Below are positions 48,174 through 64,000 of a DNA stretch of 64,000 nucleotides, one piece after another. The position numbers were made by a program, and so were the translations under genes. Location of the stretch: the NCBI RefSeq assembly GCF_020906515.1, contig NC_085851.1:1922001-1986000 (forward strand), given 5' to 3'. Each line of letters begins with the position of its first letter. Position 1 is the stretch's first letter. Below the pieces are notes generated by a model, which did no database searches, was not told where the DNA came from, and saw nothing but the letters and a program-made list of their open reading frames with translations. The stretch comes from Vanrija pseudolonga. Its lineage: Eukaryota; Basidiomycota; Tremellomycetes; Trichosporonales; Trichosporonaceae.

Positions 48174-49187
48174 CATATCGCCCCCGCACTATAATCGGTA
48201 GCTGCTACGCCTCCCTCCCCTCGACTCGACGAGGTCTGGTACTTTGTCGTCCATCCTCATCGGTACACCACCTGTACCACCTTCACACACCCCCACACAT
48301 TTTCGCATTCCATCCTCCACATTGCATATTGCATGGTCCCATGTTGTGTTCAATAGCCAACCCGATGACCCGTGAACGAGACCCGGCGAGAAAGACCACC
48401 CTGCATGCATGTTCCTACCCAGAGCGAGAGTGCGGCAGCGAGCGAGCAGAGCGAGCCAGCGGGGATGTTGGGGGAGATTGGGCGTGGGGCGAGGCGTGGG
48501 GCACTTAGCTGCACTTAGCTGACGCTGGACTGACATCCATGGGGCTCAGTTTGGCACCAAGCAGCAGCGCAGCAGCGAGCACCGAGCACGAGCGCACTGG
48601 CGTGGGCATGGAGGCACGCAATGGGAGCGGGTAAGCTTGTGCAGATAACAAAGAAGTGTGGGGCAGCGCCGGCATGTGTGAGTAGCCTAAGCGTAAGCGG
48701 GGCGGGTGGGAGGAGCCTGCAGGCATCGGATGGCGGATATGGTGCGGATCGTGCGTGCGGTGCGGATGGCTTTGTGCTCGGAATGGCGAGTTGCGCTGCG
48801 GGTGCCAAGTCAAGGTAAGGTCACAGGCGTGCAACGATGTACATAGGCGAGAGGTCTCGTGCGCCGGCCTTGTGTCCGATCCGCGAGTCGAGCCGCCTCG
48901 GTTGACAATGTTACAGAGGAGGAGGGCTCACGTGCTGCCTTGTAACGAGAGCACAAGACAGTTCACATGTTGCCTTGTTGTTGTGGGGAGGATACGTTGT
49001 GCCACCCACGGGAGGAGACGAGGGCGCGGGGCAACACCCAAGGCATGGCTGGCGGCGGGCATGGCCGAGAATGGTAGGCAAGGCGATTTGCCGCCGTCGC
49101 CGTCTCAAACCTGCACCCACCCTGCACCATGGGGTATGGTAAGCAACAACCCAACCACGCCTCCACTTCCTGCATCACACTATCAAG
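48174..49187. other. Intergenic
   Basis: About 1 kb between two same-strand genes. One reading frame stays open across it into the F-box gene but uses another frame than that gene's first exon and shows no homology-like features; it is judged noncoding. It contains GCAGCAGCGAG-type repeats around 48555-48600. Confidence 0.45.
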
Positions 49188-52100
49188 ATGAGCACGTACG
49201 GCCGCGAGGCCGCCGTCGCGGTCCTCGCTGGGCCGAAAGACACCCGCGACGCGGCGCCAGCTGGCGCTGCGTCGCCCGACACTGGCGGTGCTGCTGCCTC
49301 CCCCGACAGCGCCGAGCCCGCCACCGCCGGCCCGACGACGCTCGCGTCCCTCCCCCCCGAGCTCCTCGACCACATCCTCTCCCACGTCCCCCCGCGCCAG
49401 CGCCAGCGCGCGGCCCTCGCCCTCTCCCAGGTCCTTCGCCACCATGCGCCGGACACGCGCCATATCTGGGCGCATATGCCCGTTGGCTCGGCACGCCAGG
49501 TCATGCCCCTCTGGCGCAGGCTGATGGTCGAGCAGAACAAGGCGCGCGGCGGGGGCGCGGGGGTCGTCAAGACTTTTGGAATGGTGAGTCCGCCGTGCGC
49601 CGAGGCGAGGCGCGCGCAGCGCGCCGAGGGGATTGGGTGTCGGCCGGGGTGTTCGATGTGAAGCGGGGTGCGGCTTGGCGTGCGTCGAAGTGTGCGATGG
49701 AAGACATCTCACCGCCCTCGGCCCACTCGGCCCAGCCAGTCGTCACGAGAGGCATGCGCCCCGCCCCCACTGCTCGCTCGCTCGCGACGTCACGTGCGCG
49801 CGTGCTCGCCCGCTCGACCCGCTATGTCGGGCCGAGGGGGCGAGAGCGAAGCCGAGAGAGCGCACGAGTGCGAGCTCGCAAGCACGTCGTGCCTTTGCGC
49901 GTCTTCTTGTCGGCTTCGACGCCTCGTGCTTGCCCGCGCCCAGTGCCCTCGCCTGGCGCGCACAGCCCTTCTCCGCCCGTGCACGCACAGCAGCTCACAC
50001 CCGCAGGAATCGTGGCGCGGCGACGCCGACATTCTCAACAAGTAAGTCGCGGCGTGGCGTGTGCGCGCGCCTGTGCGCCTGTGCGCCCCGCAACCATTAC
50101 CCATGCTCACACCCCCAGCGCGCTCCGCTGCATGCCGTACATCAACACCCTCCTCGTCAACGTCGGCACAAACTTTGCCCCCGAGCACCTCCAGGAGATG
50201 TTTGAGCGGCCCCGCCCGCAGATGGAGCGCATGGAGATGCGCTTCAGGCCGTATGTCGAGCAGGCTTCGTATTACCAGTTTTTGAAGGGTGAGTGGCGGC
50301 GGCGCGAGGCACCCAGCGCCGAGCTGGTCAGAGCGCATCGTGGCGTGCCAAGACCTGCCACAAGCACCGGCAAGCAGCAGCTAACCCCCACCCCAGGCTC
50401 CTACTTCGACGCTGCCGTCGAAACCCTCTACAAGAACTGGCCCGAGACGCCCTCCTTCACGCACATCTCCCTCGTACAGGACCTGCCCCCGCGCGTGACG
50501 GCGCCGCCGACGCGCGCCCACTCGCCCGCGCCGTCGCTCGCCAACAGCTTTGCCGACCTCAGGCTCGTCAGCCGGTTCCCGACGGCCGCACCAAGCGCCG
50601 CGACGAGTGTGGCGGGCAGTGTGGCACCGAGTGCTGTGGCCAGTGCTGCGGCCAGTGCCGCTGGTAGCGTCCCGACTAGCACCGCTGGCAGCGTCCCGCC
50701 CAGCACCGCAGCCAGCGTTGCCAGCGGTGCCGCAACCCCCGACGCCGGCTCCGACACCGAGTCGGGCAACTCTGGCTCGGAGGAGTCGACCACCCCGCCC
50801 ACGTCCTTGTCCGAGGCCGACGACTCGCTCGAGTCCAAGGGCTTCACCCGCAAGGGCCCGTTCCCCTACCTCTCGGAATGCCTCCAGCACCTCAAGCCCA
50901 AGACGTTTGCCCAGCCCATCGTGTTCTTCGACATCAAGTGCATGGCGCGTTTCGGCGCTGCGCCGGTCGCGAAGCACCTCACGCACCTGCGTCTGCGTGT
51001 GCCAAGCCGCGACCTGGCCCTCGTGCTCGTCTCCCCGCCGCCCAACACGCGCCTCTTCCCGTCGCTGCGCTACCTCGACCTGTCGACCAGCAATGTCCGC
51101 CTCGACGCCGTGTTCGCCACCCTTCTGCGCCAGTACGAGCGCCTTGAGCACATCGTTCTCGACCGCGTCAACCTCTTTGCCTTCTCGGCGAGAGAGCGCG
51201 GCAACGACATGTGCAAGGAGCTCGGACAGCTGTGTGTCGGCGCTGGACTCGCCCGCGGCAAGGAGCGCGAGCGCCTGATTGCCGCGTGGGACACGGCGCA
51301 GCGCACGCGCGTGGCGCAGCAGGAGATTGCGCTCCGTCAGGCCGCGGCGCGCCGCGCGTCAGAGGACGAGTCTGACGCCGACGAGGACGACGAGGTGCGC
51401 GAGGAGCGCCGTGCCCTCCGCGAGGCCGAAGCCGCGCGCGAGGAGATGCAGCGCCAGATTGCCTTGTCCCGCTCGCGGCGTAACCGCCCGGCGCCGGCTT
51501 CACACTCGACCTTTTCCCTGCGCGACCGCCCGTCGCGCCGCGGTGCCGCCACCTCCACCGGGCCGGCCGTGTCCGCTGCCGACCTCCCGCCGCAGGACAA
51601 GGCCTACTTTGTCCTCCCGCCCCTGCCGACGATGAAGACGATCTGTATCGGCGGTGAGGCCCCGCTCATCTCGACGTTCAAGGTGTCGCACTGGGAGGAT
51701 GAGTTCCACAGTGGCTGGCGCGATGGCCTGGCCAAGTTGCACGGGTGGGCGGTGCACATTGCCGACAAGTACGAGCGGGCCGTCAAGAAGGCCAACGAGT
51801 TCAAGGAGGCCGAGGTCAAGGCACCGTCGGCCCAGAAGGGCAAGAGCAAGGGTAAGGCGGCGGCGCCAGTCAACAAGGTGCGCCCGCCGACCGATATCCG
51901 CCTGTTCCGCTTTGCGCGCCCCGACGAGCCGCTGCCCGACTGGGACCCGCGTGACCCGACGGTCGGGCTCATCGAGGTGGACGTCTCGGACGCGGCGCCG
52001 CGCGCCTACCTCGACGGGTACAAGCAGGCGATTGCCGATGCCGAGCTGTACACGCACTCGCAGGCTGTGCGGCCGCCGTGCGTGCTCTGCACTGTGCCCG

Positions 52101-52234
52101 GGTGTGATGGCCCCTCGCGCCGCGGCGAGGAGGGCGAGCGCGTCGACGGTCGCGGTGGCATGCTGGGCAAGCACAAGGACGGGTGCGGGCATGCCATTGG
52201 CGAGGAGATGTGGGGGTGGGAGGGAGTTGTGTGA
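49188..52234 (+). CDS. F-box protein with disordered inserts
   Basis: The F-box is at residues about 50-85 (TLASLPPELLDHILSHVP then QRQRAALALSQVLRH). F-box proteins bind Skp1 and present substrates to SCF ubiquitin ligases (family knowledge). Introns: a long one at 49584-50008 (425 nt), then about 50042-50118 and about 50288-50396. Spliced exons continue ESWRGDADILNN, ALRCMPYINTLLVNVGTNFA and EHLQEMFERPRPQMERMEM, which looks like a leucine-rich-repeat-like region resumed at LTHLRLRVPSRDLALVLV and LRYLDLSTSNVRLDAVFATL. A Ser/Ala linker contains imperfect AGSVPPSTAASV repeats (about 50605-50730). A Glu/Arg coiled segment (about 51290-51480) precedes the conserved end (FRFARPDEPLPDWDPRDPT), which has two possible Cys sites (CVLCTVPGC). 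The substrate is unknown. Confidence 0.8.
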
Positions 52235-52357: not shown

Positions 52358-52378
52358 GAAGGAAGGCAGTCGCGTCGG
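52358..52378 (+). promoter_or_regulatory. Shared cluster element, copy 1
   Basis: Contains AAGGAAGGCAGTCGCGTCG. It ends 50 bp before the start of the first zinc-module gene; three related copies precede the next three genes. Confidence 0.6.
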
Positions 52379-52428: not shown

Positions 52429-53570
52429 ATGGATGACACCGACCCCAGCCTCGCAGCCACCCTCGCCAGGCTCGAGCAAGCCCAAGCGGCCCACACGGCC
52501 CTCCTCCAGTCCATAAGCGCGCAGCAGGGAGCACTGGCGACGGCTCTCGACACGCCAAGCGCCGACGAGCACGAGCAAGGCAGGATGGCGCGCGCGCTCG
52601 TCGCGGCGCTGGGGGGGATCGTGACCGCGCAGGCGGGGCACGGCGGCGTCCTGCTGCAGCTGATGGGCGACGTGCGGGCGCTCATGCGCGCGGAGGGGGT
52701 CCCCACGGCGCTGACGCCGATCGCGAGCGCCGCGCCGTCGACAGAACGCCCGCAGACCGTGGCGACGACGACGCCGCGCTACACGCCTTCTGCGCCGGTG
52801 GCGAGTCCGCCCCCGCCCGCGACCACCAGTGTCCCGGTCGTCACGCCGACGCCCGCGCAGCGCAAGGCCACCGCGCAGCGCATGCTCGCCGCCATCGCTG
52901 ATATCGAGGCCGGCGAGCCAGCGCGCCGGACGGTGACGATCACGCCGCGGCACGCGTCGACGCCGGGGCTGGTGACGAGCCCGCGCAAGCCGCCGTCGCC
53001 GTCGCGGCCAGCCCCAGCCCCAAGCCCGCCGTCGTACCCAGCCTCAAGCCCGTCCCCGCACCCGCCCCCGCTCCCAACCCCGCGCCGAAGGCTGCCCCCG
53101 AACAGTCTCTCACGATGGACCAGCTCAAGGCCGCGCAGGTCGCGCTGGACCGGCTGCGTCTCGCGCCAAGGCCGAACACTATCGTCCGCAGCGGGGGCAC
53201 GCCGCTCACAGCCAAGCACGGCACGCCGGCGCCCAAGACCAAGCCTGCGGCCACCACCCCGCCGAAGAGCAAGCCCGACGTCTCTGCCCTGGCACCCAAG
53301 ACCAAGCAGGCCGCTGCGGCACCCAAACCCGCCATGCCCACGCCCAAGACCAAGCCCAAGGGGGCCGCGACTGCACCGAAGGCCAAGTCCAAGCCCCCTC
53401 CCACCCCCGCCCCGCCCGCCGCTCCCGGCTACTGCGCGGCGTGGAACACGAAGCAGAACATGTGCAAGGCCTTCTCGTGCCCCCTCCTGCACGAGTGTCA
53501 CGTCTGTGGGCCTGCGGGGCGGCCGGCTACGCATCGGTTCTTTGTGGGATGTCCGTACCGTAAGAAGTGA
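52429..53570 (+). CDS. Zinc-module cluster protein 1 (N-terminal helices, disordered linker, CCCH+CCHC)
   Basis: First tandem member. The N-terminus (LAATLARLEQAQAAHTALLQ, then LLQLMGDVRALMRAEG) matches members 2-4. The linker is Pro/Ala/Lys-rich with repeated PKTKP. The C-terminus carries the shared module C-x9-C-x4-C-x3-H-E-C-x2-C-x8-H-x5-C (AAWN after the first Cys, CPLLHEC core) and ends PYRKK. The N- and C-terminal halves lie in different frames. A 53-nt intron at 52972-53024 (donor GTGACG, acceptor AAG) joins them exactly and gives 362 residues, but it lacks the usual GTGAGT donor and CTGAC branch site, so a frameshift is the alternative. The linker reading E-P-A-Q then repeated Lys-Pro supports the second frame before 53115. 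The function is unknown; nucleic-acid binding is a reasonable guess from the CCCH geometry. Confidence 0.7.
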
Positions 53571-53640
53571 GGTGTGGGAGTGTTTGTTTTGTATGACATG
53601 CACGGTTGTATCCTGGGTAGGTGGCGGCGGTTGTGGTTTC

Positions 53641-53661
53641 GAAGGAAGACAGTCGCGTCGG
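53641..53661 (+). promoter_or_regulatory. Shared cluster element, copy 2
   Basis: Contains AAGGAAGACAGTCGCGTCG, 106 bp before the start of member 2; it differs from copy 1 at one position. Confidence 0.6.
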
Positions 53662-53767
53662 ATTGATCGCTTTTCTCCACTCTGCCGTCGTCTATCCTCC
53701 ACTCACACCCAACTCACGCCCCACACACACACACCTCACAGCAGCACTCATCACGAACTGAGACGCA

Positions 53768-54718
53768 ATGGACATCGACCACGACCCACTCACCGCCGCC
53801 CTCCTGCACCTCGCACACACGCAAGAATCCCACACCGCCCTCCTCCAGTCCATCGTCAACCAGCAGGCGGCACACACGCGCACCCTCGAGTCAGTCTCGC
53901 GGGCCCTCACGGCCCTGACGCGGCGCGTGGACGCCACGGCCTCGGGGGACGTGCTGCGCTCCCTCTGCGGCTGCGTGGGCGAGCTGGTCGCCATGCAGGC
54001 TGGGCATGGGGTCGCGCTGCTCGACCTCATGGGCGATGTGCGCGGCGTGATGCGAGCTGTTGGCGCCGAGGTGCCGTTACTCGCGCCGTTTGTTCCAGAT
54101 CTGTCGGAGGACAAGATCAAGAACAGGGGGAAGGGCGCGGTGACACCGACGCCGGTGCCGCCGCCGCCGCCGCCCGCCAAGATCGACCAGCCGCGGGCTG
54201 CGCCCCTCACGAACGGCAAGCTGGTGACTCTGCCCATGCCGACTGAGGCAACAGCGCCGACACCCCCACCCCCGCGCAAGCCTGCTCCGCCGCCCCATCC
54301 CAAGCCTGCCCCCATCCGCCCACCACCAGCACCGTCCAAGCCCAGGCCCTTCACCTTCTCGTCCAAGGGCCTGACCTACATCCCTCCGCCAACGCCAGAC
54401 GGTGGCTGGGGGAGGTCGACCTGGGTACCCAACTCCAGCCCGGCGCCGCCCAAGCTCAAGCCCAACCCTGCCCCCGAACCCGTTCCCAAGCCCGCCCCCA
54501 AACCTGCTCCACGACCCACTCCCAAGCCCACACCCACGACCACCCCCAGTCGCCCCTCTGGCCCCCGGCCGCCATACTGTGCCCGCTGGAACCAGGGCAA
54601 AGGCGTCTGCACGGAGCGCGTCTGCCCGCTCCTACATGAGTGCTTTGCGTGCGCCGCGACGGGGCGGCCCTCGAATCACCGGTGCTGGTGGGGCCGGTGT
54701 ATCAAGAAGTGGAAGTGA
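53768..54718 (+). CDS. Zinc-module cluster protein 2
   Basis: Intronless, 316 residues. It opens MDIDHDPLTAALLHLAHTQE; the start is nearly identical to member 3 in protein and DNA. Next come the helical HTALLQSIVNQQAAHTRTL and the shared GVALLDLMGDVRGVMRAVG. A long Pro/Lys-rich linker follows (repeats of PAPKP/KPAPRPTPKP). The C-terminal module is C-x9-C-x4-C-x3-H-E-C-x2-C-x8-H-x6-C with ARWN, CPLLHECFAC and GRPSNH. It ends KKWK, a basic tail like member 1. The N-terminal helices are likely to oligomerise. The module would hold two zinc ions, a CCCH site and an adjoining C-x2-C/H/C site. The family is not recognised. Confidence 0.85.
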   Translation: MDIDHDPLTAALLHLAHTQESHTALLQSIVNQQAAHTRTLESVSRALTALTRRVDATASGDVLRSLCGCVGELVAMQAGHGVALLDLMGDVRGVMRAVGAEVPLLAPFVPDLSEDKIKNRGKGAVTPTPVPPPPPPAKIDQPRAAPLTNGKLVTLPMPTEATAPTPPPPRKPAPPPHPKPAPIRPPPAPSKPRPFTFSSKGLTYIPPPTPDGGWGRSTWVPNSSPAPPKLKPNPAPEPVPKPAPKPAPRPTPKPTPTTTPSRPSGPRPPYCARWNQGKGVCTERVCPLLHECFACAATGRPSNHRCWWGRCIKKWK

Positions 54719-54770
54719 GGCATGTCATGTTCGGTGGGCTGGTTGGGTTGAGCCAATGTTGCAAGTGGAG

Positions 54771-54793
54771 GAAGGAAGGGCCGAGTCGCGTCT
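54771..54793 (+). promoter_or_regulatory. Shared cluster element, copy 3 (2-nt insertion)
   Basis: GAAGGAAG, then a diverged spacer, then AGTCGCGTCT; 64 bp before the member 3 start. It is the most diverged of the four copies. Confidence 0.5.
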
Positions 54794-54857
54794 GATTACA
54801 CTCATCCAGTGCCCAATCTTCCTCCAACCACCACATCGCCACACCCAGCCTAAAGCC

Positions 54858-55760
54858 ATGGACATCGACCACGACCCACTCACAACCACGCTCCTCCGCC
54901 TCGTGCGCGTCCAAGAATCCCACAGCGCCCTCCTGCAGTCCATCGTCTCCCAGCAAGCGGCGCAGGCACGCGCGCTCGAGGGCCTCGCCCGGCGCCTAGA
55001 CGACAACGGCATGGTCCACACCGTATCTGGTGCGCTACGCGAGCTCGTCAACGCCCAGCAGAGCCAGGGACACGCGATTCTCAACCTCATGGGCGACGTG
55101 CGCGCCGTCATGCGCGCCGTTGGGGCACAGGTGCCCGATCGGTGGGGCAGGCCGACGATGCTCCCTGCGGTGGCGGAGGGAACGCCCATGCCCAAGGCGA
55201 CGGTACGGCCTGCGCCCTTGGGTACCCACATTCCCCCGCAGGTGACACGCGCACCTGCTACCCCCGAGTCCAAGGGCGCTGTCCCCCTCCCCCTCGCCGG
55301 TGGCATCGTCAAGCCGACCCGCACGGTGGAGACCACGTCGACACCACCTGCCCCGCTCACTCCGCTCCCGGTCACTTCGCAGCCCAAGCCTCGGGCAGCA
55401 CCGACACCCAAGCCTCAGGTAGCACCGACACCCAAGCCCCCTGCTGTGGCACCAACATCATCGCCAAAGACCACGACCTTTCCACCCTCCGCTAAGCCTA
55501 AACCCCTCGCCAGCACAAGCAATTCAGCGTCCACCTCCACCACGGCCCTCAAGCCCATCCCCAAGCCCAAGCTCACTCCGAAGCCCGACCGCGCGCGTCT
55601 CCGCGCCGAGCCCCCCTACTGTGCCTCGTGGAACGAGGGCAACGGCGCCTGTGACCCGCACACCTGCCCGCTCCTGCACGAGTGCTTCGCCTGCGCTGCG
55701 GTGGGTCGGCCCTCGAAGCATCGGTACCACTCAGGCCGGTGCCTCAAGGGGTTGAAGTGA
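54858..55760 (+). CDS. Zinc-module cluster protein 3
   Basis: Intronless, 300 residues and the closest relative of member 2 (MDIDHDPLTTTLLRLVRVQE; SALLQSIVSQQAAQARALEG). The MGDVRAVMRAVG motif is present. The linker is a Pro/Thr/Ala chain with tandem APTPKPQV-type units (55395-55445). The C-terminal module C-x9-C-x4-C-x3-H-E-C-x2-C-x8-H-x6-C carries ASWN, CPLLHECFAC and GRPSKHRY, ending CLKGLK. The ATG at 54858 is chosen because it aligns with member 2; the open frame extends further upstream but is not conserved there. Recent tandem duplication with member 2 is inferred from near-identical first codons and shared upstream element. Confidence 0.85.
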   Translation: MDIDHDPLTTTLLRLVRVQESHSALLQSIVSQQAAQARALEGLARRLDDNGMVHTVSGALRELVNAQQSQGHAILNLMGDVRAVMRAVGAQVPDRWGRPTMLPAVAEGTPMPKATVRPAPLGTHIPPQVTRAPATPESKGAVPLPLAGGIVKPTRTVETTSTPPAPLTPLPVTSQPKPRAAPTPKPQVAPTPKPPAVAPTSSPKTTTFPPSAKPKPLASTSNSASTSTTALKPIPKPKLTPKPDRARLRAEPPYCASWNEGNGACDPHTCPLLHECFACAAVGRPSKHRYHSGRCLKGLK

Positions 55761-55834
55761 GGCGTTGGCTGTGGGTAACGGTGGGAAGCGGTGTAGGATG
55801 AATTGTAGCGCAGATGTACATGAAGTGGAAAGCA

Positions 55835-55855
55835 GAAGGAAGACAGTCACGTCGA
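55835..55855 (+). promoter_or_regulatory. Shared cluster element, copy 4
   Basis: Contains AAGGAAGACAGTCACGTCG, only 34 bp before the start of member 4; one base differs from copy 2 within this stretch. Confidence 0.6.
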
Positions 55856-55889
55856 TCTTTCCCTTCCATTTTTCTCTTCTCCACTCACC

Positions 55890-56711
55890 ATGTCGAGCAC
55901 CCGCACACAGCACACCACGCCGCTGCAGCAAGTTGAAGTCGACACCGACCCGCTCACGGCAGCCATGCCACGCCTGGCAGCAACGCGAGAGGCCCACACC
56001 GCCCTGCTGCATTCCCTCGTCCGCCAGCAGGAAGAGCAGGGCCGCACCCTCGCCGCCCTCCTCCGCCGCGCCGACGATAACCCCGGCGCCGCCATGGTCC
56101 GCGCCGTGTCTGGGGCGATGCGCGACCTCGTCAAGACACAAGCGAGGCAGGGGTACGCTCTGCTCGATGTCATGGGCGACGTCCGCGCCGTGATGCGCGC
56201 GGTTGGCGCGCGGGAGCTACCAAGCTTGGAGGGTGGCGTGGCTGCGTCGCTGCCTGTCGGCCCGATGCAACCCCGTATCGATAGGAGGCGGATGGCTCGG
56301 AGTGACAAGGTCAAGGCGGCAACGACGAATGCAGCGGCCAAGTCTACGCCGACGCCCGCAACCAAGATCCACGCCACGGCCTCCTCGTTACCGCCCAAGC
56401 CGGCCAGTCTGCCGCCACGGCCCGCCCGGAATCAGTCCCGCAAGCCCGGTGCCAATGCAGCCACAACCCCCATCACGTCGAGCACAACGCCCGCCTTAAC
56501 CTCGGCTGCAGCCGCCACCTCCACGTCCGCCCACACGCCCCCTGCCAACGCGGCCTACTGCACCTCGTGGAACCTCGGCCAGAAGAACCACCTCTGCAAG
56601 GCGCTCAACTGCGCCCTGCTGCACGAGTGCTTTGTCTGCCACCCCATTGGCGCCGGTCACGGCAAGAAGCACCGGTACAACCCGCAGCGTTGTGGGGACA
56701 ATAAAGCGTAG
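55890..56711 (+). CDS. Zinc-module cluster protein 4
   Basis: Intronless, 273 residues. The N-terminus (QVEVDTDPLTAAMPRLAATR, HTALLHSLVRQQEEQGRTLA) and the motif YALLDVMGDVRAVMRAVG align with members 1-3. The linker is shorter and Thr/Ala/Pro-rich. The module is slightly expanded: C-x11-C-x4-C-x3-H-E-C-x2-C-x10-H-x6-C, with TSWN and CALLHECFVC, ending RCGDNKA. All eight presumed ligands and the Trp after the first Cys are kept despite the loop insertions, which indicates selection on the fold. It lies between member 3 and the diverged member 5, in the same orientation. Confidence 0.85.
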   Translation: MSSTRTQHTTPLQQVEVDTDPLTAAMPRLAATREAHTALLHSLVRQQEEQGRTLAALLRRADDNPGAAMVRAVSGAMRDLVKTQARQGYALLDVMGDVRAVMRAVGARELPSLEGGVAASLPVGPMQPRIDRRRMARSDKVKAATTNAAAKSTPTPATKIHATASSLPPKPASLPPRPARNQSRKPGANAATTPITSSTTPALTSAAAATSTSAHTPPANAAYCTSWNLGQKNHLCKALNCALLHECFVCHPIGAGHGKKHRYNPQRCGDNKA

Positions 56712-57105
56712 GGTGCGAGTGATGCGTGGGGAGAGTGAGTGATGCGTGTGTGGGTGAGAGTGATGCGCGTGTAGGCGCGAGTAATGCATGTTGTATTGTC
56801 GTGAGTGATGTGTGTTTCATGTGTGTTTGTGGCGGTGTGTGTGTGGCGGCGTCATTGTCCAGCCGGCAAAACGAGGCACGACAATGACCGACGTCCGGTG
56901 CGAGATGGTGCGGACGGCGCCGTGTATTGTGTTTGCTTCGGGCTTGATGGCGGAGGCAGCATTGTGTACGGCCTCGCCCCGCTTCGCCCCACGATCACAG
57001 CCAAACAGCCAGCAGCGATGACACACACAGCCGGTGCATACATATATGACAGACAGCTGCGCCGCATCCTTCCATCCACAACTCTCAACCACACATCCCA
57101 CCACC
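56712..57105. other. Intergenic with a degenerate minisatellite
   Basis: About 394 bp. Five degenerate copies of GAGTGATGCGTG occupy 56717-56814, immediately after the member 4 stop. A CATATATGAC stretch (57041-57050) about 60 bp before the member 5 ATG is TATA-like. Confidence 0.6.
56717..56814 (+). repeat. Degenerate GAGTGATGCGTG minisatellite (about 5 copies)
   Basis: Units at about 56717, 56737, 56757, 56779 and 56803, spaced 20-24 bp, the first two identical over 12 bases. It lies in the 3' flank of member 4. Confidence 0.6.
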
Positions 57106-58506
57106 ATGAAGCGCGGACGCAACTTTGAGATCAAGCTTGCCATTGGCACCCACAACGACAGCAACAGCGAGGGCGAGGAGGTGAGTCGCGTCGTGACGCG
57201 AGCTAGCTGACAACAGAACGCGCCCGACGCGCCCAAGGCCAAGCGCGTGCGCAAGTACGACGTGCGCGTCGTTGTCCCCGCTGGCGGGGAGGGCGGGGAC
57301 GAGTACCCAGCGCAGCGCAACAACGACCTCCTCGACGGTATGGACCGCGAGCTCGGCGTGATTCGCGGCGTGCAGTAGACCCACGGCAACCGCCTCGCCC
57401 ACATTGAAAGCCAGAACCGCCGTCGCACTGCCATGCTGCACCGCCACCTCGACCTCATCGAGCGCCGGGTGGAGGACATGCTCGAACATGTCAGGGCAGA
57501 GCGCAGGCGCGAGTACGACAGTCGCCGCAACGTCGAGGGCGAGGAGGACTCTGACCGTGGCTATGATACGGACGATAGCAGGGACGGCAGGCGCAACGAC
57601 TACCGCAACGACTACCGCAACGACTACCGCAACGACTACCGCAATGACTATTCCAACGACTACCGCAACGATGGCCCACCCCACCGCGACCCCGGCACCG
57701 AGTCCCGCCGCCATGTCGGCGACGGCCGCCGCATCCTTGTTACGAACAATGGACTGTTCCGCCGCGACGCCTCCGAGCAGCAGCTCGCCGACGAACTCCG
57801 CTACGGCCCGGCGCCTGTGAGGCTTCCGCACGAGTCGGACCGGGCGTACTTCGAATTCGCGTACCAGATGGGCCGCAACTACGAGGCGGAAGACAGGCGC
57901 GAGCGCAGCAGCGAGGACGGCCAGTCCTCTTCGTGCGATATCGACTGCGGCTGTCTCTACCACCTGAGGCACATCGACAGCGACACCGACAGCGACACCG
58001 AGTCGTGGCACCCCAGAGCGTACGACCCCGACGAGGCGTACCGCGCCCGCGACGACGATGACGACCAGACCGAGTTCCCGTCCGAGGAGGGCGACTACCG
58101 CGCGGCGCTGGAGATCCTCGACCTGGCGGTACTGGCGCAGGATGCGCTCGAGTTTCGCGCGATGGAAGAGCGCGAGGAACGCGAGCAGACGCAGGAGCAG
58201 GAGATGCGCGGGCAGGACGAGGCGTACGAGTTCGAAGATGAGCACGTGGACTACCTGGGCCCTCCGGTGAGCGTGAGCAGCGCCGCCGGTGACAACCTCG
58301 TCAACCGCTACCCCACCGCCGACGACATGCCTGTCGCGACGTGCGCCGCGTGGAACCTCGGCCGCTGTGCCGACGCGCCCGAGTGCCCCAACGGCAGGCT
58401 TCACGCGTGCGCCGTGTGCCACATGTTCATGCTGCCCGCAGACCACCGCCACATCCGCGACGGGTGCCCGAGCTACCTTGTGTACGAGGAGTATGACGAG
58501 GAGTAG
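57106..58506 (+). CDS. Zinc-module cluster protein 5 (diverged; in-frame TAG near residue 80)
   Basis: Starts MKRGRNFEIKLAIGTHNDS. A 36-nt intron (57181-57216) joins to NAPDAPKAKRVRKYDVRVVV. Coding continues to MDRELGVIRGVQ, then meets TAG at 57376-57378, and the same frame continues uninterrupted (THGNRLAHIESQNRRRTAML, then a coiled coil HLDLIERRVEDMLEHVRAER) to 58506. So either the gene is broken by one change (CAG to TAG would explain it), the protein starts at Met 57433, or the stop is read through. The middle holds (RNDY)n repeats and acidic/Arg-rich stretches. The C-terminal module C-x7-C-x5-C-x5-H-A-C-x2-C-x8-H-x6-C keeps all ligands and AAWN. It is longer and more charged than members 1-4. 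Confidence 0.65.
57592..57671 (+). repeat. 12-bp tandem repeat encoding (RNDY)n
   Basis: Unit CGCAACGACTAC starts at 57592 and repeats every 12 bp: four exact copies, two variants (CGCAATGACTAT, TCCAACGACTAC) and a partial one. It encodes Arg-Asn-Asp-Tyr repeats in member 5. Confidence 0.9.
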
Positions 58507-58747
58507 GGGTTGAGAAGCAGGAAGGGGTGTGCATTCGGTTCAGCTTGAGTGAGCTGCTGACAAGTTGGGGACATGTACGTACACACACGTCTGTGCAGGT
58601 ATGCAATGCGTCGCACGTCATGCTGCCTCGACTGGCTCAACTGTTGTTCATCACTCATATCATCTCAACTCACGTTCAAGCTACACAGCAGCATACATAT
58701 CATTCGTCAACTGATCCAACGATTCAAAGCACGACCGAACCCAGTCA
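58507..58747. other. Convergent 3' region
   Basis: 241 bp between the member 5 stop and the stop of the minus-strand zinc-ribbon gene. Relatively A/T-rich for the window, with ACACACACG and CATACATATC stretches. No gene is seen. Confidence 0.5.
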
Positions 58748-59361
58748 CTAATCCTTGCCCGCGATGACCTCTGCAGCGCGCTTCGCCACACTGGCCTCGA
58801 GGAGCACAGGCGCCACGCCGTCCGGCACGTCCTGCTTGGCGGGGTCGGCGCCCTTTCCGCGCTCCTGGCGCCAGCCTTTCGTCAGCCTGACCACCCCGAC
58901 AAACCCACCACAGCGGCCGCAGCCCCAGATGTTGCGCGAGCCCATAGGCATGATCGGGATGACGTAAAGGAGGGAGAAGACGCGCATCTCGTGTGCCCCG
59001 ACGACGGACGCTGGCGTCAGTCAGCTTGGTCTGGTGGAGGAAAGGCGCACGTTCGCCACACTGAGGGCAGATGCGGCCGTACTGCGTGCCCGTCTCCTGT
59101 ACGATCTGGGCCGTCAGCACCTGGGATCGGTGCGCTGGCTTGCTTGACGCACCCGCTTCGGCGCAGCATAGTCCCCTGGGTTGGGTACGTCAGCGAATGC
59201 CGCCAGCGACAGCGACAGCACCGCGCGCGCTCACAGAAACTGTTGTTGCGCTCCCAGCGTGGCAGGGCCGGCGCCGTCTCGCCCGTTTTGGCGTTCACGA
59301 CGGCGCTGTCCTTTGCATTGGGGTTGTTGCCGCCGATACCGAAGAGGGAGAAGCTGGACAT
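58748..59361 (-). CDS. Zinc-ribbon protein (fungal zinc_ribbon_15-like), 155 aa
   Basis: Four exons. It starts MSSFSLFGIGGNNPNAKDSA, where the FGIGGN N-terminus resembles small fungal zinc-ribbon proteins. Splicing (introns about 59175-59236 and about 59105-59151, both with CTGAC branch sites, and about 59018-59058) gives NNSFWDYAAPKR, IVQETGTQYGRICPQCGEPS and VVGAHEMRVFSLLYVIPIMP, then NIWGCGRCGGFVG. The CPQC and CGRC pairs flank a hydrophobic strand with PI-MP, the hallmark of this zinc ribbon (CPxC ... FxxPxxP ... CxxC). An Ala/Glu/Lys-rich helix ends KD. The function of the family is not established. It is unrelated in sequence to the composite CCCH modules around it and lies on the opposite strand. 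Confidence 0.8.
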
Positions 59362-59902
59362 TGTGGGGGTGGGCTGGCTTGGGGGATGGGAGGGAGCTGC
59401 ACGCCAGTCACCATGTGCTGCCAACCCCCATGCTTTATACATGCCCCGTTGCGACTGCCTGCCCACAACTACATAGCTGCACCAGACACTTCGCACACGG
59501 AGATCCATTGCCTTCTCGTGACCTCTGCCGCCACATCACGGCGGGCATGCATGGCCGTAATTGCCACGTGAGCGCACTACAGAGTTCAAGAGTTCAAGCC
59601 GGCAGTGGGTGGGCAGGTGGCACGGCGATTTCGACGGGCACTCTGAAACGCTGCGTCATGCATGCCTCACAACAAATGGTGGGCGGGGTGGTAGGTTTCC
59701 GCAGTCGTGTGCTTGGCACCAGGAACCGAGGTGGTCACAAGGCCAGCATCGGCTTGTTTAGCTGCACACCACCACGGCGACAATGTTGTCGTTGCCAACT
59801 TTGCCATCAATCGAGCTGTCCAGAGGCCGAGTCTGACCTGGCTGCTGCTTCCGACGCGTCTCAACTTTTGCCCGACCCGACGCCGCCACTGCCACCGCCA
59901 CC
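59362..59902. promoter_or_regulatory. Divergent promoter region
   Basis: 541 bp between the divergent zinc-ribbon and four-TM genes. GAGTTCAAGAGTTCAAG (about 59584-59600) is a short direct repeat. No coding frame is supported. Confidence 0.5.
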
Positions 59903-61071
59903 ATGTCTGTCGGCGCAGCACGCGCGCACACGGCACTGTTCGTCGTGGCGCTCATCGTGGCTGTGATCGTCGTCTTCTCGTCTGCCGCGTTCGTCGGCAT
60001 CCTCTTCGGAGGTGGTGCGTATGCTGTGGCGTTGTGGCGCTGTGCTCGGCTGACCATCCAGATGCCTACTGGAAGTACAAGACAGACCCCGCGCCGCCCA
60101 TTGTCGCGCTGGTATGGAGCTTCCTCACGACCCTCTACTTTATCGTCTAGTGAGCCGAGAGTCGCGTGCGCATCCACCACGACGCTGACGCGGCGCCAGC
60201 TTCATCGTGCGCTTCGCAAACTCGCACAACTTCTTCGTGTGCATCATCATGGACGTCGTGTTCCTCTCGGTCCTGACCATCATCGGGATCGGCGTCATGT
60301 CGACCATGGCGCTGATTGGCGTCCGCGGCCGCTGGGTCGACGCCGTCTCGAACGGCTTCACGGGCGGCATCCCGAGGTGAGTGTGCGCGAACAGGCAGGA
60401 ACTAACGCCAGCGTCGGCATCGTGGTCATCACCCTTGGATGGACTCTGGTCGGCATGGTACGTGTGCCACTCTGAGCGCGCCTGACGCATCACAGCTCCT
60501 CATCATCATCGCCTTCGAGGTCATCTACACGCTGCGGCAGTACGGCCGTTCGACCAACTTCTGGCAGCTGAGCTTCCTCGACCTGACGGACGACACACGA
60601 CCTCTCGACGGCCCGCGCGTACGCCGCGCCCGTATCGACATTGAGGGAGAGGAGGCTTTGCCCATGCGCGCTGCGAACGCGAGCGCTATGTCGCCGTTCT
60701 CGCTCCCGCATCCAGACGTCACCCCGTTCTCGATGTCGCATGGCGGCACCGCACCGTCGTCACCGTACAAGGCTGACGCGCTGCCCCCCTACGAGCCCCC
60801 AGCGGACTCGGGGATGGCATCGGTGCTCGTCCACTCGTCGCCGTCGACCAGCTCACCATCAGCCGTAGTCCCGACGCTGGGACATGCACAGTCGCGCCAG
60901 TCATCGTCGGGATACCCATTCTCGGGATACGCCGGGCAGCAGCAGGACATGCCCGACTGGAAGCGCGCCGCACTCGACGCGCCAATGCCAGATTGGAAGC
61001 GCGACGCGCTGCAAGGCCCGAGTGGGGATGGGCTGCCGCCCGGAGCTGCGCCGTCGCGTCCATCGCAGTGA
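59903..61071 (+). CDS. Four-TM (MARVEL-like) membrane protein with Ser/Pro-rich tail
   Basis: Five exons. TM1 is ALFVVALIVAVIVVFSSAAF. After an intron (about 60016-60061) comes DAYWKYKTDPAPPIVALVWS with TM2 (FLTTLYFIV). The next exon gives FIVRFANSHNFFVCIIMDVV, FLSVLTIIGIGVMSTMALIG and GRWVDAVSNGFTGGIPS. The fourth gives VGIVVITLGWTLVGM, joined to LLIIIAFEVIYTLRQYGRS. Four hydrophobic helices with short loops and an aromatic NFFVC helix resemble fungal MARVEL-type proteins. The tail is cytosolic-looking and phosphorylatable (PHPDVTPFSMSHGGTAPSSP), with two QQDMPDWKR/PMPDWKR units. It probably organises membrane subdomains; the exact role is unknown. It sits within the zinc-module cluster but has no Cys module itself. 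Confidence 0.75.
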
Positions 61072-61349
61072 GGGGCTGCTGAGTACCGCTCACGCGACCT
61101 GGTGCGTCTGGCGCGTTTGCACAACTAGACTATGGCTGTGTATATAATGACAGTGGCCAACAACCCCCCTAATCATGGAGCGGCGGTCCACCTCACCAAA
61201 AGGAAGGCGAGGAAGGTGGTCTGGCACTCAGCGCCGCTGGCAGCCCGCAGCCTGCGTATAAATGATGCGCCGATCTTCCTCGTCTACGTCAACCGCACAC
61301 TCTTCCTCCCACCTTCCCCTTCCTCCATCGACTTTGCTGCTTCGTCACC
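61072..61349. promoter_or_regulatory. Promoter of the heptad-repeat gene
   Basis: 278 bp. A TATAAAT box at 61257-61263 lies 87 bp before the ATG; a pyrimidine-rich leader follows. Another TATATAATG occurs at about 61140-61148, near the previous gene's 3' end. Confidence 0.6.
61257..61263 (+). promoter_or_regulatory. TATA box upstream of the heptad gene
   Basis: TATAAAT, 87 bp from the start codon at 61350, in an otherwise GC-rich flank. Confidence 0.6.
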
Positions 61350-62007
61350 ATGCCCCAAGGTCGCCCTAGCAACAGCCCCACCGTGCCCTCCCACAGCAAC
61401 CTCACGAGCGCCAGAAACACGATCGCCATCGACGACGCTACCACAACCGCCGATACGGGCATCCATAACCAAGCCCTCGGCAGCCCAAACCAGTATTGCG
61501 AGCGTGATAACATCGCCCGTGAGCTGGCGGGAATCGCCTGGGAGCGCGCGAGGATCGCTCTCGAGCGCATAACCATCGCCTGCGACCGCATGGACGTCGC
61601 CCATCAGCGCATGAACCTCGCCCACCGGCTCATGAATATTGCCCGCCTGCGCCAGAGCATAACCCTCGAACTCGAGGCCCATGGGTACATGAGCTCGGCC
61701 CGAGAGCTCATGGGTACCGCCTACGAGCACATGGACATCGGTCGCGAACTCCTCGCCCAAGCAGTCGAGTGGCTCAATCAGCTTGTCGCCCGTGGACACA
61801 GCGACGCTGTTCGCGCGGCTTTCAGCGAGCTCGACGCCGAGCAGCAAGCTATTCCTGGCACCACCAGCGCCACGAACAATGAAGTAAGCAGGGTACCGTA
61901 CTCTCAATGAGCTATCCTCCTAACCAAACCACCCGCAGGGCAGCTCCTCTGCTGGCTCCTTCGATGACCCCGCTCGCGAGGAGCAAGCCCATTCACCGGA
62001 CCGCTAG
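61350..62007 (+). CDS. Heptad-repeat helical protein (200 aa)
   Basis: Two exons, 61350-61883 and 61939-62007; the 55-nt intron has a CTAAC branch site and CAG acceptor. The N-terminus is Ser/Thr-rich and the C-terminus short and acidic (DDPAREEQAHSPDR). The core (61512-61679) consists of eight consecutive 21-bp units, each encoding a heptad of the form (I/V/L)-A-x-(E/D/Q)-R-x-x, for example IAWERAR, IALERIT, IACDRMD, VAHQRMN. The register continues more loosely to about 61790. It would form a long amphipathic helix or coiled coil with an Ile-Ala seam and Arg/Glu flanks. It has no zinc module. Placement next to coiled-coil zinc-module genes suggests a related scaffold or partner (inference). 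Confidence 0.8.
61512..61679 (+). repeat. Eight 21-bp tandem units encoding heptads
   Basis: Units start every 21 bp from 61512 to 61659, each beginning ATC/GTC/CTC/ATT/ATA then mostly GCC or GCT. Adjacent units share the ATCGCC ... GAGCGC framework but are diverged, indicating old internal duplication under protein-level selection. Confidence 0.85.
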
Positions 62008-62393
62008 CCGGCACGACGACTCACCATTCCTCGTAAACGTCCTTCAAGTCCGTTTCTGCTCCGAGAGACGATGTCTAGTATGAGGCAGCAGGGTGAAGCA
62101 TGGCGAAAGAGCTAGTGGGGTGCTGCTCGATGACATGAGGCTCATGTACACATTCCAGAATGCTGTGGGGCAGATGCGAGGTGCGGCGCGAAGGGTGGCG
62201 GCTGACTGCATTGACGTTCACGTTCACACTCCTTGTCCGATTGTGTGTGATGCTCATTCACCAGGATGCGACCCTCGCCCTCGTCGTCTTGCACGACTCT
62301 TGCTCAGCGTGTATAAGTCGGCGGTCCTGCTCTCCCACATTCATACTCATTCACTCAACCACACTCCCTCCCTATCGACCCACACTTCTCATC
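62008..62393. promoter_or_regulatory. Promoter of cluster protein 7
   Basis: About 386 bp. TATAAG at 62312-62317, 77 bp before the ATG, and a CTCATTCACTCAACC-type leader. No gene is seen in the left part. Confidence 0.55.
62312..62317 (+). promoter_or_regulatory. TATA-like box upstream of cluster protein 7
   Basis: TATAAG within GTGTATAAGTCGG, 77 bp before the start codon at 62394. Confidence 0.5.
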
Positions 62394-63201
62394 ATGCCAG
62401 ACGAGGACCACCAGCGTCAGCGGCCCTCCACCGAGGGAAACCACCACACGGCGCATGTCGGTGGCGTTCCATCTGCCACCGGCGCTGCCAATACCGTGGC
62501 GCGTGCTCCCGCAACTGTCGACGCAACCGTGCACACCGTTACGACCCTTTACCAAGTCATTGCTGGTATTCAGCGCCGGTTGGACGCCAACGATGCGACT
62601 ATCAAGACCATCACACGCCTCCAAGCTCAGAACCAGGCTGAGCTGGATGCACTCCAGCGTCGCTTGAAAGCGCACGAGCAGGCGCTCGATGCCGTCGCCC
62701 GCGGCCTGGCAGCGAACGCTACGGCCATGGCTGGCCAGGCTGTCGGCAGCGCACATGCCGAGGGTAACAGTAAGCTTGATGATTTAGCTCGAACAAGACA
62801 ACGCTGACAGTGTAGCCAACCTCGAAGCGATTTCCCACCAGATACGCGGGAACGGAGAGACCCTGGACCAGATATACAGGGACATCGAGCGGGTTGGGAG
62901 GAATCTGCAGACGCAGAGCACGCTGCTGAGCGCGAGTGTCGCCGAGCGCGCCACTGCCGCGGAGGTGCTTGGCCAACTCGTCACCAGGGGTCAGGCTCGC
63001 CACACCTCGCGCGAGGTTGCCGGCCCCGCGGCGCTCGAGGACAGCTCGCCTCGTCTCCCTGGCTGCTGCCCCGACTGGGCTGCCGGCAACTGTGCGGGCC
63101 AGACGTGCCCTCGCAACCTGCTCCATGCCTGTGCTCTGTGCTCGACGGCAGACAAGCATGTCCACCACCAGTCGGCCGCCTGCCCCAAGCACAGCGCGTG
63201 A
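62394..63201 (+). CDS. Zinc-module cluster protein 7 (coiled coil plus CCCH+CCHC)
   Basis: Two exons; a 46-nt intron (62770-62815) gives 253 residues. The N-terminal half is predicted coiled coil (LYQVIAGIQRRLDANDATIK, QAELDALQRRLKAHEQALDA), continued after the splice by AISHQIRGNGETLDQIYRDI. The C-terminus carries the family module, C-x7-C-x4-C-x5-H-A-C-x2-C-x8-H-x4-C, with the Trp kept (CPDWAAGNC) and the L-H-x-C-x2-C core (LLHACALC). It lacks the long Pro/Lys linker of members 1-3 and has an extra Cys directly before the first ligand. It is the most distant complete copy, 6 kb from the tandem block, and shows that the module rather than the linker defines the family. Confidence 0.8.
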
Positions 63202-63453
63202 GGTAGCTACATAGGTTGCGTCGAGGACCTTGGCATGGCATATGCACTCTGTTGGTGCGTCGCGCGACGTGTGGCGCAGTTGGTGCCACCGTGCCACCAA
63301 CGCGCTGACATCATTGACGCCTGTGCGCCCCAAGGGCGTTTGAGCCAGTCACTCAACAATCCGTGTCTTGCTCGTCTTGCTCATCATCCTTTGACTTCCT
63401 CCATCAACACTTTCTCACCTCTTTCCCTTTATCACCCCTCCCGCAACTGCATC
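63202..63453. other. Intergenic between cluster genes
   Basis: 252 bp. The right half is a pyrimidine-rich leader (TTGCTCGTCTTGCTCATC). No TATA box is evident. Confidence 0.45.
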
Positions 63454-64000
63454 ATGACCAAGCGCCGCCGTACCCCGTCGGTGGACACGCTCGACGTCAC
63501 GTCCGACACCGACACTGAGGCCACCTCCGCCGGCACTCACGCTGGCGCCCCCACCGCGGTGACCCACAACCACAACAACTTCAACAACTTTTCCGTCAAC
63601 ATTGACACCGATGCCATTCATCGCGCTATCGAGCAACAGAATGCGCTTCTCTCGTCCATCCAGGCCACCCAAGTCGAGCATACCGACATGCAGAACCAGC
63701 ATGCCGAAGTGACCAAGTCTGTCCAGGTGGTCCAGGAGCAGCACGGCGAAGCCCATGCCGAGCACCGCGACGCTCTCGCCGGAATCAAGCGCACCCTCGA
63801 CAACCATGACAAGGCATTTGACGACCACGGCAAGGCACTTGCCATTCTGGTCGACTCTCAGAAGAAGCACGACGAGGTCCTTCAGTCCATTCTCCAGGGG
63901 CAGAAGGACCAAACAGACCTCCTTCAGTCCATTCTCGCCACTCAAAGGACCCTCGCTGAGAAGCTTGACGCCTCTGCCGCCATCGTCACGGCCACCGTAG
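63454..64000 (+). CDS. Coiled-coil cluster protein 8, cut by window end
   Basis: Partial. It starts MTKRRRTPSVDTLDVTSDTD, followed by a Thr/Ala/His-rich stretch with HNHNNFNNFSVNID, then a long coiled coil (IHRAIEQQNALLSSIQATQ, ALAGIKRTLDNHDKAFDDH, KKHDEVLQSILQGQKDQTDL). The NALLSSIQATQ and LLQSIL segments recall TALLQSIxxQQ in members 1-4, so it probably belongs to the same family. Any C-terminal Cys module would lie beyond position 64000 and cannot be judged. The frame is open to the edge with no intron seen. Confidence 0.7.
   Translation, partial: MTKRRRTPSVDTLDVTSDTDTEATSAGTHAGAPTAVTHNHNNFNNFSVNIDTDAIHRAIEQQNALLSSIQATQVEHTDMQNQHAEVTKSVQVVQEQHGEAHAEHRDALAGIKRTLDNHDKAFDDHGKALAILVDSQKKHDEVLQSILQGQKDQTDLLQSILATQRTLAEKLDASAAIVTATV

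Follow-up and report, generated by a model that had tools for sequence, protein, structure and literature searches.

The Vanrija pseudolonga stretch analyzed here (64,000 nucleotides of contig NC_085851.1, positions 1,922,001 to 1,986,000; "the window") runs at its end into a tandem array of genes whose predicted products share a C-terminal module whose eight Cys/His ligands form two groups of four. In all, 13 modules are distributed over 11 genes (members 1 to 11, Table 1) within about 18 kb, all on the + strand. The array overruns the window by about 6.2 kb, which contain the remainder of member 7 and then members 8 to 11, and was followed through 19.5 kb of DNA beyond the window (L007, position p of which is window position 63500+p). 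Each of the six modules within the window obeys the spacing formula by which an earlier note, made from that sequence, had defined them. A regular expression for the module has 11 matches in the combined 83.5-kb stretch; neither 40 order-1 Markov simulations of equal length nor 20 local shuffles read in six frames produced one. Members 6, 9, 10 and 11 have database entries in V. pseudolonga, and the genes returned, including member 11, are named only as uncharacterised. The annotation numbers 350 and 351 would fit members 7 and 8, by counting alone.

Several gene models require comment. The N-terminus and the module of member 1 are in different frames, and an intron or a frameshift would have to lie somewhere from about 52800 to 53270. 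None of the intron candidates is convincing: in the best of them the donor departs from the consensus (5 of 6 positions) or a branch motif is lacking. Upstream of the long frame of member 5 is an in-frame TAG (57376-57378) that only unusual introns would remove. The same gene has a twelve-base tandem repeat encoding NDYR repeats (57592-57671). The parts of member 8 are not connected by any model that uses one to three introns out of nine candidate introns. Member 11 is read here as a frame of 485 amino acids (aa), and its annotation, which starts later, gives 467 aa.

Table 1. Members of the module array and copies of the shared upstream element; positions are those of the window unless prefixed L007.
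Feature	Position	Strand	Module	Remarks
Upstream element of member 1	52362..52377	+		GAAGRCAGTCRCGTCG, exact match
Member 1	52429..53570	+	53433-53552	N-terminal helices in frame from ATG 52429; module in other frame; stop 53568-53570
Upstream element of member 2	53645..53660	+		exact copy of GAAGRCAGTCRCGTCG
Member 2	53768..54718	+	54578-54700	single open frame, 316 aa
Member 3	54858..55760	+	55620-55742	single open frame, 300 aa; orthologue P0002
Upstream element of member 4	55839..55854	+		exact copy of GAAGRCAGTCRCGTCG
Member 4	55890..56711	+	56559-56693	single open frame, 273 aa
Member 5	57106..58506	+	58342-58467	likely exon 1 57106-57180; intron 57181-57216 (GTGAGT..CTGAC..AG); long open frame 57379-58506
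Member 6	62394..63201	+	63067-63183	LOC62_03G004349, 253 aa; exon 1 62394-62769, intron 62770-62815, exon 2 62816-63201
Member 7	63454 to L007:1189	+	L007:1058-1180	411 aa; window holds N-terminal part to 64000
Member 8	L007:1488 to about 2317	+		degenerate; Tyr replaces second Cys
Member 9	L007:2713-3582	+		LOC62_03G004352
Member 10	L007:3970-4986	+		LOC62_03G004353
Member 11	L007:5250-6707	+		LOC62_03G004354; three consecutive modules; last gene of array

The first four ligands follow the pattern C-x(7-11)-C-x(4-5)-C-x(3 or 5)-H, with an aromatic residue at the first Cys +3. Members 1 to 3 read C-x9-C-x4-C-x3-H, member 4 has x11 in the first interval, and members 5 to 7, 9, 10 and 11 have x5 before the His. 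The second set, C-x2-C-x(8-10)-H-x(2-6)-C in the 11 matched copies, starts one residue after the first. Its x(8-10) before the His bears out the proposal that this site has a longer loop than a retroviral-type knuckle. The ligands and the Trp had also been described as invariant, which is accurate for the six copies in the window and fails over the whole array and its orthologues: member 8 has the Tyr listed in Table 1, the last Cys is absent from module three of member 11, the orthologue of member 3 has its second Cys two places earlier, and member 9 reads C-W-A-Y, which puts Tyr in the position of the Trp if no gap is introduced (the MAFFT alignment has one). Because the ligands are conserved, the module is presumed to bind two zinc ions; it would fold as one small unit.

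CCCH fingers are spaced C-x(7-9)-C-x(4-6)-C-x3-H and, where they bind RNA, have an aromatic residue at the first Cys +3; the spacing of a retroviral-type CCHC knuckle is C-x2-C-x4-H-x4-C. The Nanos-type zinc module is small, binds RNA and has two zinc sites next to each other. Resemblance to the first of these is confined to spacing. The first set of ligands is CCCH-like and has the aromatic residue, as the label given to it in the earlier note implied; unlike the fingers of zf-CCCH (PF00642), however, the module adds a second four-ligand set, and none of 12 modules matched that profile at an expect value (E) of up to 10, although the HMMER filters drop most matches above E 0.1. Across the genome, PF00642 has 26 matches at E up to 1; 19 exceed the cut-off, and the array contains none of the 26. 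With the CCHC knuckle the module shares the ligand order C, C, H, C and the C-x2-C start, but its loop is longer and the 12 modules have no zf-CCHC profile match. The Nanos-type structures (PDB 5kl1 and 5kl8) gave a weak alignment over profile positions 14-46 (E 4.7 and 4.9, 10.4 bits), which is not significant and ranks behind five unrelated chains.

Broader searches gave a similar picture. Ten frames compared with Pfam matched no family in eight cases, and the exon 2 frame of member 6 and member 7 gave matches below curated cut-offs only, those of member 7 being coiled-coil-like. Twelve of the 13 modules (member 8 left out) matched five Pfam families, one module each, with a best E of 0.01 (CD45), which we take as chance. 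In PHROGs one family matched one module at E 0.055, a search of PDB profiles gave seven matches, none significant (best E 0.21), and a plasmid collection searched by tblastn with member 3 gave none. Literature searches, mostly at the level of their listings, listed no description of the family. Profile searching, set beforehand as the test of the claim that this is no described family, placed the module in none that is characterised, and the claim holds in the libraries searched, to which this putative orphan zinc-module family appears to be new.

Comparison of orthologues indicates where constraint falls. Between member 11 and its orthologue, ligands are identical at 23 of 23 aligned positions (the 24th, missing in V. 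pseudolonga, was left out), compared with 49 of the 95 remaining module positions (Fisher p 2.4e-6), a count made somewhat favourable by the fact that the alignment anchors on the ligands. The contrast argues for a metal site under selection, although not for the strict conservation first suggested, given the exceptions elsewhere in the array and in the orthologues. Over its length, the member 11 pair is identical at 44/78 positions in the N-terminus, 22/41, 33/41 and 17/36 in the three modules, and 44/101, 44/103 and 8/17 in the linkers. For member 3 and its orthologue, the N-terminus (69/93) and the module (31/41) are better kept than the linker (72/144). Identity to the orthologue is 72% for member 9 and 70% for member 10, and both ends are visibly the best preserved parts. 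Among paralogues, nonsynonymous divergence (dN) is below synonymous divergence (dS) in all six pairs of members 1 to 4, in N-terminus and module alike. In the module, dS exceeds 1 wherever member 1 or member 11 is one of the pair. For members 2 and 3, dN and dS are 0.27 and 0.585 in the N-terminus and 0.26 and 0.537 in the module; dN at about half of dS suggests that coding constraint is present but mild. The rapid divergence of copies proposed earlier is supported.

The tandem expansion is also supported. The copies of genes 1 to 4 are 0.95-1.37 kb apart, and GAAGRCAGTCRCGTCG has only three exact matches genome-wide, in front of genes 1, 2 and 4, with an altered copy at gene 3. When one mismatch is allowed there are 24 genome matches, compared with 5 for a backwards control, and the 21 one-mismatch places lie elsewhere, so the looser element is not unique to the array. 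A promoter motif common to all members was not seen.

The distribution of the family appears to be narrow. Used as queries against the same genome, member 2, member 11 and three modules taken singly returned 6, 5, 9, 3 and 2 matches, including self, all within the array; sensitivity was limited, the best of these searches recovering 9 modules out of the 13 known. With two degenerate DNA patterns, 17 and 21 places in the genome matched, of which 10 are in the array; 28 lie outside it, and no module was present at any of the 27 that could be read. A collection of 5.8 billion proteins was searched three times by shared words, once with seven modules joined in a chain; apart from proteins of V. 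pseudolonga itself, only four were returned (P0002, P0004, P0008 and P0009). Since each of the four lists a longest contig of 65,554 bases, they are taken to lie on one contig, and apparently belong to the orthologous array of a relative. Such searches find a protein only through five-residue words that it shares exactly with the query, and the seven-module query did not return members 5 and 7, whose modules it included; distant homologues in other genera could thus be missed. The lineage restriction first proposed is therefore best described as apparent, with the family apparently restricted to the genus Vanrija. V. pseudolonga is placed in the Trichosporonaceae (Tremellomycetes), which bears out the class supposed in the earlier note. 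Vanrija is described as generally free-living in PMC7026411, where V. humicola JCM 1457 and UJ1 are also listed.

Between the N-terminus and the module lie variable, often low-complexity linkers. Prediction of member 3 from five sequences (mean predicted local distance difference test score, pLDDT, 50.7) gives two long helices, residues 7-47 and 53-87, followed by a low-confidence, disordered-looking linker, the only linker modelled. A hydrophobic period of 3.45-3.55 residues is present in member 3 (13 of 500 shuffles as strong) and member 7 (0 of 500), and the N-terminus of member 7 is predicted to be coiled-coil-like. Of five models of the module by itself, built with 12 module sequences in the alignment, the best has a pLDDT of 84.3 and the worst one of 62.9.

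The N-termini fall into at least two types, judging from their sequences: members 1 to 4, in which the shared xALLxSxxxQQ and MGDVRxxMRAxG segments noted earlier are real, and members 10, 11 and probably 9. In hhalign comparisons, member 10 pairs with 11 at 92% (E 7e-7) and with 9 at 71% (E 4e-5), while 9 against 11 gives only 3.5%. The N-termini of members 1 to 4 score 0.4%, 2.2% and 10.6% against 9, 10 and 11, and 21% and 18% against 6 and 7; eleven reversed controls, drawn from the 1-4, 9, 10 and 11 groups, reached 4.5% at most. A common ancestry of all N-termini was considered and not adopted; links across types are suggestive at best because helices of similar composition score alike.

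Net charge varies widely. The 13 modules range from -5 to +7, so charge gives no support for RNA binding as a property of all members. Those of members 1 to 4 carry +3 to +7, and whole proteins 2 to 4 carry +18 to +19; these members could hold RNA or DNA. The modules of members 7 and 9 (+4 and +5) are also basic, in acidic proteins.

These features may best be read as an adaptor-like family, tandemly amplified and apparently restricted to Vanrija, in which oligomers present zinc modules and RNA is the likeliest partner of the basic members 1 to 4; we give this reading a probability of about 0.4. The order of helices, flexible linker and zinc module suggests an oligomer that offers several modules to one partner. 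The N-terminal helices would assemble into homo- or hetero-oligomers and the flexible linker would let the modules reach, so that many of them could be presented to a shared partner and grip it with avidity. Less basic paralogues would serve as partners or modulators and may bind proteins or tune the others. The binding of RNA or nucleoprotein by oligomers, as first suggested, remains plausible on these grounds.

A number of observations weigh against this reading. Members 1, 5 and 8 look interrupted or degenerate, and modules 1 and 3 of member 11 are no better kept than the two longer linkers of the same protein. In the full-length prediction of member 3 the module is not confidently folded (pLDDT about 37-44), and the five module-only models differ considerably in confidence. 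The heptad signal is at shuffle level in members 9, 10 and 11 (264, 345 and 294 of 500 shuffles as strong) and weak in members 2 and 6 (30 and 98 of 500). The modules of members 5, 6, 8 and 10 and all three of member 11 carry only -5 to +1, proteins 7, 9 and 10 are acidic overall, and member 11, at +9, differs in charge from its orthologue, at -29. Neither the frames nor the 12 modules have a significant match in Pfam to any nucleic-acid-binding family.

The last of these points, and the seven modules of 13 with a charge of -5 to +1, would agree with a reading in which the module is a protein-interaction zinc domain, with a role like that of MYND, ZZ or B-box domains, and the array encodes scaffold or regulatory partners. 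This is a serious competitor, if a somewhat less probable one, as it leaves the CCCH-like first half with its aromatic residue and the strongly basic members 2 to 4 to be explained, and no known domain of the kind matches significantly (one module matched ZZ_ADA2 at a chance-level E of 0.058). A more ambitious form of the RNA-binding reading, in which a new two-site zinc fold of Vanrija origin works in combinatorial hetero-oligomers, N-terminal types choosing partners and divergent modules choosing RNA or DNA, so as to form a young RNA- or chromatin-binding system, is improbable.

Helices, a linker and a C-terminal zinc knuckle occur in that order in retroelement gag, and relics or domesticated copies of gag might also show mild purifying selection and local multiplication. 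The helical N-terminus of about 90 residues is, however, shorter than a capsid domain, the copies are not dispersed (a single locus was found), and the genes lie on one strand, with an intron in member 6 and orthologues apparently on one contig. There is no RVT_1 match genome-wide at E 0.001, and the nearest of six RVT_2 matches is about 757 kb from the array, integrase not having been searched for. We consider a gag origin unlikely. Proteins named as gag-like with a zinc knuckle in PMC10351740 can be likened to the array's products by description only. No better is the case for fast-diversifying recognition or defence genes, directed at non-self or at mobile elements, with the modules as variable readers: the tandem array, the two or more N-terminal types, copy-specific losses and diverging linkers would suit such a role, but dN is below dS at both ends in all six pairs of members 1 to 4, and Pfam found no effector domain on ten frames. 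It may be, finally, that the array consists mostly of non-functional remnants of one ancestral gene that decay as they duplicate. The frame change in member 1, the stop in member 5 and the lost ligand in member 8 are what such decay would leave; the 23 ligands kept in the member 11 orthologues, the open frames of members 2, 3, 4, 7, 9, 10 and 11 and the annotated splicing of member 6 make it highly improbable.

Should the adaptor-like reading hold, the array would represent a compact, young protein family in which the metal ligands are fixed while the remainder changes, and a usable system for following how new zinc modules arise and diversify. For annotation, the gain is 11 genes with one common module and a testable function.

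Copia-type frames in this genome led us to abandon the idea that it is free of retroelements. At four places (G000:C1:3174011, C2:893217, C2:2929472 and C3:1216759), matches to copia-type reverse transcriptase have equal scores and equal open frames of 1540 aa, which suggests recent copies.

The surroundings of the modules contain other genes. Before the array, a large neighbouring frame (48686-52231) has, by eye, leucine-rich-repeat-like text and a Cys-rich C-terminus, with no Pfam match. Between members 5 and 6 lie one gene without a module and probably a second; the two frames scanned there have no Pfam match. In the clear one of these genes (61350-61910, with a short second exon that was assigned by eye and reaches about 62007), a canonical-looking intron follows 61883, and 21-base repeats encode seven-residue, helical-looking units (ARELAGIAWERARIALERITIACDRM...). 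On the far side of the array are two small genes, placed by eye at about L007:7072-7447 (+) and about L007:7450-7946 (-). Both start with W-T-x-E-H (STAWTNEHQ and KDRWTEEHT), and they are possibly paralogues in opposite orientation.

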